A stretch of DNA of 35,576 bases from Pseudomonadales bacterium. GTDB lineage: Bacteria > Pseudomonadota > Gammaproteobacteria > Pseudomonadales > Pseudohongiellaceae. The notes beneath the pieces were generated by a model. The model had not been told where the DNA came from. It saw only the letters and a program-made list of their open reading frames with translations, and ran no database searches. The translations under genes were made by a program, and so were the position numbers. This document shows positions 14,128 to 15,055 of the stretch, piece after piece. How positions within the stretch are numbered: position 1 is the stretch's first letter; each line of letters starts with the position of its first letter. The stretch is taken from contig JALEHB010000046.1 in the NCBI GenBank assembly GCA_022763285.1, positions 1 to 35,576 of the forward strand. The letters run 5' to 3'.

Positions 14128-14577
14128 ATGAAAATGAAACTTTTGGCTCTGGCCGCCGTAACCGCCGCTGGCGTTGTTGCGATCAAGCCACCGGCGACTG
14201 CGCACCATGCCTTCTCTGCCGAATTTGATGCCAACCTGCCGGTACGTCTGGGCGGTCCCATTACCCGTGTTGAATGGATCAACCCTCACACCTGGATCCA
14301 CCTGGACAACAATGACCCCGAGTCCACTCGTGATCCCGGTCCCTGGATGGTAGAAGGTGGTACTCCCAATACGCTGCTGCGTCGTGGTATCAACCGCAAC
14401 TCCCTGCAGCTGGGCACTGAGATTATTGTGACTGGTTACCAGTCCAAGGACCGTCTGTGTGAACCCACTTGCCGCGCCAATGGTAGAGACATCACCTTCC
14501 CCGACGGCCGCAAGTTGTTTATGGGTAGTTCTGGTACAGGCGCGCCGCGCGACGGTTCAGACCCGACGGAGAACTAG
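14128..14577 (+). CDS. DUF6152 family secreted protein
   Basis: A 149-residue protein with a signal peptide (MKMKLLALAAVTAAGVVAIK then PPATA, cleavage before HHAFSAEFD). The mature start HHAFSAEFDANLPVRLGGPI followed by TRVEWINPHTWIHLD is the defining pattern of DUF6152, a small secreted beta-domain of unknown function. Two cysteines in CEPTCRANGRDITFPDG may form a disulfide; the same region is conserved in relatives, where a modified form of an OB-like fold has been suggested. The HH pair at the mature N-terminus is a possible metal site, which is speculation. An AAGGGG ribosome site precedes the ATG. It is paired with the lipoprotein gene upstream and ends at a strong terminator. Confidence 0.88.
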   Translation: MKMKLLALAAVTAAGVVAIKPPATAHHAFSAEFDANLPVRLGGPITRVEWINPHTWIHLDNNDPESTRDPGPWMVEGGTPNTLLRRGINRNSLQLGTEIIVTGYQSKDRLCEPTCRANGRDITFPDGRKLFMGSSGTGAPRDGSDPTEN

Positions 14578-14600
14578 TGCTGCTTAATGAGTGCAAAACA

Positions 14601-14624
14601 GCCCGGTTGTTACCGGGCTTTTTT
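14601..14624 (+). terminator. Intrinsic terminator after the DUF6152 gene
   Basis: GCCCGG (14601-14606) and CCGGGC (14613-14618) form a GC-rich stem around TTGTTA, followed by six T residues (14619-14624). An A-rich run upstream gives a weaker terminator for the other strand. Confidence 0.9.
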
Positions 14625-14634
14625 GTGGCTGTTG

Positions 14635-15055
14635 TTTGGACGCGCCGGCTGCGAAACGCTGGCTCCGCGTTGCGGGAAATTTTTGATCGGATCACTTAGC
14701 AACCGTAAGCTCACCGCTCAAAAATTTCCCGCGCCTTGATCCAGCGCTTCTCGCTCGCCGCTCACATTGTCACCCGCCCGATTATTCTCGCCAGCATTAA
14801 GGTTTTGCATCGAACCTGAGCAATCAGCTGATTTCGCCGCTCGTGATCAATAATTGAGGCAGCAAAAACCTCTTGGATGAGATCAAGTTAGGAAAGAACA
14901 GAAAATTCAAACAATAGGTGAGATAGCGAGCAGCGAGCGAGGGACGTCGGAACAAGGCGCGGGATTTTTTTGATTCGGGAGCTTACTGTAGTAAGTGACC
15001 GGATCAAAACAATTCCGCAACGCAGTGCCGGCGTTCCGCAGCCGCTGCGTCCCAA
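14635..15055. repeat. Large inverted-repeat element, non-coding (MITE/REP-like)
   Basis: Two arms of about 140 bp, 14635-14774 and 14917-15055, are inverted copies of each other. By hand alignment about three quarters of the positions agree, with a single one-base gap. Shared blocks include GGACGC at the outer ends, GGCTGCG, GCGTTGCGG, TTTTGATC, TCACTTA, GTAAGCTC, CCCGCGCCTTG, CTCGCTCG and TCACC at the inner ends. Each arm is itself palindromic. In the left arm GCGGGAAATTTTTGA (14672-14686) and TCAAAAATTTCCCGC (14718-14732) are a perfect 15-bp inverted repeat. The right arm has an imperfect version centred on CTTACTGTAGTAAG. The roughly 140-bp middle holds AAGGTTTTGC/GCAAAAACCT and AATCAGCTGATT but no open frame I can support. 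It fills the gap between a terminator and a convergent stop codon. A dispersed, non-autonomous mobile repeat is the best guess. Confidence 0.75.

Follow-up and report, generated by a model that had tools for sequence, protein, structure and literature searches.

What is the palindromic DNA that fills the space between two convergent genes in the genome of a Pseudohongiella bacterium, and is it one element or more? The locus lies in the window, i.e., the whole 35,576-nt stretch of contig JALEHB010000046.1 (assembly GCA_022763285.1) analysed in the present study. The original prediction, made from the sequence alone, described a single non-coding element of 420 bp with two inverted arms, each of them palindromic, placed between a terminator and a convergent stop codon. 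The arms were recovered as described: positions 14635-14774 and 14917-15055 are reverse complements with 76.4% identity over 140 positions (blastn, E 8.4e-24, small local database; about 75% over about 140 positions had been predicted), a pairing which an inverted-repeat search reports as two parts, of 73 nt (75%) and 64 nt (80%). The perfect 15-bp inner repeat noted in the left arm is contained in a 19-nt inverted repeat with 95% complementarity (14672-14690 with 14714-14732), and the terminator-like stem and the stop codon flank the arms as proposed (Table 1). Each arm is itself an imperfect hairpin that folds better than shuffled sequences: on the favoured strands the RNA z scores are -5.5 for the left arm (minus) and -7.4 for the right arm (plus), compared with -3.9 and -4.0, respectively, on the opposite strands. 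The locus consists of two such hairpins of about 128 nt (128 and 127 nt), arranged head to head with 162 bp between the copies. Both copies carry CGTC at their end, and four bases separate the right copy from the stop codon of P0001. The view of a single 420-bp element, however, had to be abandoned, because the unit occurs in other numbers and spacings at the other loci of the genome and in one or two copies at orthologous loci.

Table 1. Features of the paired hairpin locus and its flanking genes in the window
Feature	Position	Strand	Remarks
Flanking gene P0002, DUF6152	14128..14577	+	Pfam PF19649, E 4.7e-27
Terminator-like stem of the DUF6152 gene	14600..14619	+	T tail to about 14627; precedes the left arm
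Hairpin copy 1	14637..14764	- (favoured strand)	R1 127.2 bits, R2 88.8 bits, both full length
Copy 1 inner stem	14672..14732	unassigned	Inverted repeat
Copy 1 putative degenerate leader	14765..14789	-	In other copies ATCGAAGGG...; inferred by eye from the flanks of 96 copies
Copy 2 putative degenerate leader	14904..14926	+	Inferred by eye
Hairpin copy 2	14927..15053	+ (favoured strand)	R1 133.9 bits, R2 105.7 bits, both full length
Copy 2 basal module	14938..15041	+	CGAG 14938-14941 with CGCAG 15037-15041; conserved in the 24-copy alignment
Copy 2 middle module	14953..15025	+	CAAG 14953-14956 with CGCAG in CAACGCAG 15018-15025
Copy 2 apical part	14978..14999	+	GGAG 14978-14981, stem and loop, GTGAC 14995-14999
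Flanking convergent gene P0001	15058..15624	-	Without Pfam family; stop codon 15058-15060

The distribution of the unit was assessed by blastn and by two structure models, of which R1 was built from the genus alone and R2 from 91 relatives; all model-based counts are lower bounds, and the model E-values are rough. In the own genome, whose assembly is 91% complete, blastn located the unit on contigs C101, C289, C68 and C189. R1 gave 19 matches at E<=1, corresponding to 14 places and five opposite-strand echoes; at E<=1e-6 there were 12 places, the two of the window included, and these extended to six other contigs. At the same threshold R1 matched at least 37 of the 84 genomes of the genus Pseudohongiella and at least 45 of 293 genomes of the order (at least 29 of 118 genera), counts which are minima because 41 and 11 candidates, respectively, were scored per genome. 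At the level of the class, where 12 candidates were scored for each genome, matches at E<=1e-6 were present in at least 107 of 274 genomes and at least 90 of 222 genera. Further copies, which the original prediction had proposed to look for, are present both in the own genome and in its relatives. Several variant arrangements were encountered among them. One locus (G303:C1 2882055-2882695) carries five head-to-tail copies that recur about every 129 bp. A subfamily in three genomes, G057, G012 and G011 (L020 near 1481, L094 near 1555 and L095 near 1491), contains an extra palindromic insert of about 50 nt (GCCGACAATTGCTCCTGCATTGTCGGC-like) at a single position of the 5' arm, i.e., a nested repeat, and one copy of G044 (L109 1520-1719) is longer by about 70 nt, with the insert near the hairpin tip.

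Orthologous loci were traced through P0001, which has a match in 75 of the 84 genus genomes, two of these being weak (36-37% identity). Among 30 such loci, P0002 and P0001 form an adjacent convergent pair in 27, with intergenic gaps of 45 to 1219 bp, and seven contain an R1 match at E<=0.01. Both copies are present in the own genome and in G076, a single copy on the P0002 side occurs in G044, G012 and G004, and in G053 and G011 the copies lie near contig ends. In 22 of the 27 loci with both flanking genes in view, no R1 match was obtained at E<=0.01. These empty orthologs align too loosely for a target duplication or an exact empty-site boundary to be read. Together with the copies elsewhere, the copy-less sites support the earlier suggestion of a non-autonomous, dispersed and structured repeat, here in the form of two separate copies. 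In two of the genomes (L141 and L144, from G012 and G076), the P0001 stop codon is separated from the hairpin site by extra DNA that is long and similar in both.

The fold of the hairpin is under selection. When 24 copies, hand-chosen from the blast hits, were aligned with plain MAFFT, the RNAalifold consensus contained 43 pairs, 34 of which show at least one compensatory double change; the covariation which had been proposed as a check was thus found. The later alignments, A2 and A3, were fitted to the R1 structure. Seven sets of copies that share a site, grouped by eye from their flanks, show the same behaviour: 85-96% of the pair cells are paired and 15-32 of the 43 pairs are doubly changed within each set, in an alignment that was fitted to R1 and hence leans to the structure. 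One of these sets is located at the end of what is presumably guaB, with guaA, as we take it to be, next in L102 (both named from sequence). The occurrence of copies at the same site in different species may reflect repeated insertion at one place.

The two strands of the hairpin are not equivalent. Among the pair cells of 96 copies (95 distinct rows), 3225 are Watson-Crick, 363 G-U, 56 A-C and 297 other; one nearly invariant G-U pair supplies 76 of the 363 G-U cells. Removal of this pair leaves G-U to A-C ratios of 108:25 for copies with an antisense gene on both sides and 126:24 for those in convergent pairs, and this equal preference under both arrangements argues against a simple mRNA hairpin. 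Of the 96 genus copies, 93 fold better on the favoured strand than on its complement, as do 79 of 82 wider copies. Conservation is evident in three internal modules, the limits of which, like those of the leader, were set by eye. On our own reading of the sequences, these modules, including the basal CGAG/CGCAG module of copy 2, may be forms of tandem G.A mismatches. The middle module of copy 2 contains the positions of a pair that covaries outside Watson-Crick rules, alignment columns 38 and 191, with G.A in 69 copies, A.C in 23, G.C in two and A.A in one; in other phyla A with A occurs there as well, one side being fixed by the scan pattern itself.

Gene contexts were derived from unannotated open reading frames by a simple rule. 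Of the 96 copies, 93 have a gene past the 3' end of the element, and in 80 of these the gene is antisense; its stop codon lies within 7 nt of the element end in 26 of the 80 and at 59-76 nt in 22, the latter as expected behind a terminator. The 13 copies with a sense gene downstream are counter-examples, and the pair on contig C68, which sits between divergent genes, likewise runs counter to a strict gene-end rule. After the copies were collapsed to 40 site clusters by their 3' flank, the downstream gene was antisense in 31 of the 38 clusters with a call; the orientation bias among co-directional pairs was weaker at the level of sites (13 versus 4, P 0.049). The wider set of 85 hits described below yielded 57 usable contexts, 40 of them with an antisense gene downstream, and in 31 of these 40 the stop codon occurs 15-43 nt after CAACGAAG, at about the end of the outer stem. 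Contrary to a strict gene-end rule, 10 of the 85 hits fall inside an open reading frame. We also considered a hairpin belonging to the 3'-UTR of the neighbouring mRNA but find it less likely, since in most copies the favoured strand is antisense to that neighbour.

The family extends well beyond the class. An exact-pattern scan of genome contigs returned at least 118 stretches, compared to a calculated chance expectation of 0.9, and 80 of them were analysed as loci. Among the matches listed are the isolates Evansella caseinilytica and Listeria fleischmannii, several Enterobacterales, and metagenome-assembled genomes (MAGs) named as Bacteroidales, Clostridia, Deltaproteobacteria, Sulfurimonas, Scalindua and Peribacteria, names which may mislabel their source. 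The motif RAGGC, which lies outside the pattern, is present within 45 nt upstream in 64 of the 82 hits long enough to test. At E<=0.05, R1 matched 66 of the 80 pattern loci and found nothing in the other 14, which weakens the reading given below. RNAalifold on the R1-matched wider loci gave 32 of 36 pairs doubly changed, in an alignment that leans to R1. In 28 chosen genomes, R2 detected from 1 to at least 124 copies per genome at E<=1e-4, with tens of copies (20 or more each) in 16 of them; five of the 28 contributed no row to R2, including the Listeria genome with 47 matches. Evansella contains nine copies that are 80-100% identical, and such similar copies dispersed in one genome point to mobility. 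In one Clostridia MAG, a Gut-1 RNA (RF01706, 60.7 bits; L206 89-165) precedes a hairpin copy by about 130 nt. The family pattern yielded no stretches in viral contigs, and neither did the reversed control, which therefore says little on background. A blastn search against phages matched the terminator part of the query alone, in six Pseudomonas phage records, and one against plasmids gave no hits.

On this evidence, we read the locus as two copies of a non-autonomous mobile hairpin, which represent in Pseudohongiella a family that occurs across bacteria and includes the enterobacterial ERIC sequences, and consider this reading somewhat likelier to be right than wrong. According to the mechanism we propose, a folded single strand, either ssDNA or RNA, would be recognised by an enzyme or a host process. 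Recognition would involve the internal modules instead of terminal repeats, since the outer stems differ between lineages. The recognised hairpin would then be copied to new places, of which those just past stop codons or terminators would tend to survive because little harm is done there. The interpretation originally offered is partly supported by these results; kinship with ERIC did not form part of it.

The main rival explanation is a functional structured RNA of old dispersal, which we regard as rather unlikely. In such a case the favoured strand would be transcribed, by read-through from the upstream gene, together with tRNA precursors or from a promoter of its own, and would serve as an antisense or 3'-end regulator, or as a protein-binding or processing site. 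The compensatory changes at shared sites and the preference of G-U over A-C are in keeping with an RNA, and a structure conserved at such sites hints that the copies are of use where they stand, a property that a purely selfish element need not have. A convergent upstream gene could read through in 44 of the 96 copies, whereas 33 copies are situated between genes that are both antisense to the favoured strand, and these copies show an equal strand bias. Of the 14 loci tested for tRNAs, eight have a tRNA gene (Met, Trp or Phe) on the same strand that starts within 10 nt after the copy; around the window copies, however, there is no promoter-like site. RNA-type tetraloops are not enriched (GNRA in one and UNCG in none of 60 four-base loops), a result near chance and hence weak, and Rfam has no match on the element at the gathering score, two weak sub-gathering hits being obtained in E-value mode.

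The original prediction also considered a pair of REP-like units in BIME arrangement, and for this or any other palindrome mobilised by a RAYT we now see a very small probability. The terminal CGTC of both copies recalls REPs of the CGTC type, the copies are paired in inverted orientation and Y1 transposases do occur in some relatives, but a hairpin of about 128 nt is far longer than a REP. Moreover, the window's genome has no Y1_Tnp match at E<=0.001, none of the 10 Y1 loci in genus and order genomes is flanked by a copy, and 12 of the 16 genomes with 20 or more copies lack a Y1_Tnp match; a RAYT is accordingly not supported as the mover, and the RAYT check proposed earlier came out negative. 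Nor is a reverse transcriptase supported, since the presence of RVT_1 does not track the hairpin in 29 genomes: Y1_Tnp and RVT_1 were each found in 11 of the 29, the window's genome being without either, and among the 16 copy-rich genomes eight lack RVT_1 and six lack both. No mobiliser was found among these two families.

A site of single-strand recombination comparable to the attC sites of integrons, or some other substrate of a tyrosine recombinase, would account for a structure that is better conserved than the sequence of its stems, for conserved unpaired or mispaired positions and for tandem runs such as the five-copy array mentioned above; attC core boxes were not seen by eye, and we hold this explanation to be very improbable. 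One old inverted duplication or a chance palindrome without a wider family, as two adjacent arms that are 76% alike might have suggested, is refuted by the copies on six other contigs and in many genomes.

Known repeats resemble the window hairpin to different degrees. Like MITEs (Correia/NEMIS, RUP, YPAL), as described in the accessible parts of PMC2229807 and PMC10969869, the hairpin is non-coding, dispersed, strongly folding and in the range of 100-200 bp. It differs from them in lacking a terminal inverted repeat that is constant throughout the family, its conservation residing in internal modules, and no partner insertion sequence was found for it in the search of the Y1_Tnp and RVT_1 families. 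The CGTC-tagged REPs and TIR families, in the portion available of Di Nocera et al. 2013 (PMC3733652), also have CGTC near one end, are intergenic and often paired, and occur near convergent gene ends; the same text also describes long inverted repeats whose mover is unknown. REPs, however, are 20-40 bp long by that account, and no tyrosine transposase is associated with the present hairpin.

The closest resemblance is to ERIC, which has been used in strain typing for decades; the apical tip resembles the ERIC-PCR primers. Of 5426 E. coli genomes, 5375 contain matches to the joined primer centre, and 33 of 32,836 ERIC places in E. coli are on plasmids. The apical part of copy 2 matches the centre of ERIC, and E. 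coli ERIC aligns there. R1 aligned with an E. coli ERIC copy at the tip alone (19.2 bits); with a Klebsiella ERIC that does not fall under the scan pattern, it aligned from position 14 to 115 (29.0 bits, E 1.7e-4 over 640 kb). R2 aligned with E. coli ERIC over its full length (positions 1-128, as also in both window copies) with 44.2 bits; neither this score nor those of the window copies are independent of near kin, because the R2 rows include six from enterobacteria and 14 from the genus or order of the window. The E. coli copy scored also ends at a stop codon, that of ybhI.

It is conceivable, though we would put the chance at somewhat below even, that ERIC is only the enterobacterial branch of bacteria-wide mobile hairpins, recognised in the form of a folded single strand and defined by fixed modules of the tandem G.A type, not by terminal repeats. 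These would be copied in a preferred orientation to gene ends without a Y1 transposase or reverse transcriptase, and their fold would then be kept by selection in place. If one covarying hairpin does occur in Pseudohongiella as well as in Listeria, Bacteroidales, Scalindua and Peribacteria, functional questions can be put to hundreds of natural variants. Such a wide family, if real, predicts the important positions and the strand, and both the spread of ERIC and its action as RNA or ssDNA become testable in hosts that are harmless.

ERIC (also IRU or RU-1) is of the same size class as the window hairpin (127 bp in E. coli) and is likewise an imperfect palindrome, dispersed and intergenic. By eye, its consensus in the available part of PMC2759123 shares with the window hairpin both the internal loop CAAGGC...CAACGCAG and the apical tip GGAGCTTAC...GTAAGTGAC. 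The differences are found at the base and the ends: the window hairpin possesses an extra basal module, CGAG/CGCAG, and its copies end differently from ERIC, whose ends are given in the accessible text of PMC2229807 as TATAC...GTATA with a TA duplication. We recognised no report of ERIC-type hairpins outside Enterobacteriaceae and Vibrionaceae in those parts of the open-licence literature (bioRxiv excluded) that were available. ERIC is described from these two families in the available text of PMC10969869, whereas the host of the window belongs to Pseudohongiella; because of this host genus, we file the window hairpin as kin of ERIC and not as ERIC in the strict sense.
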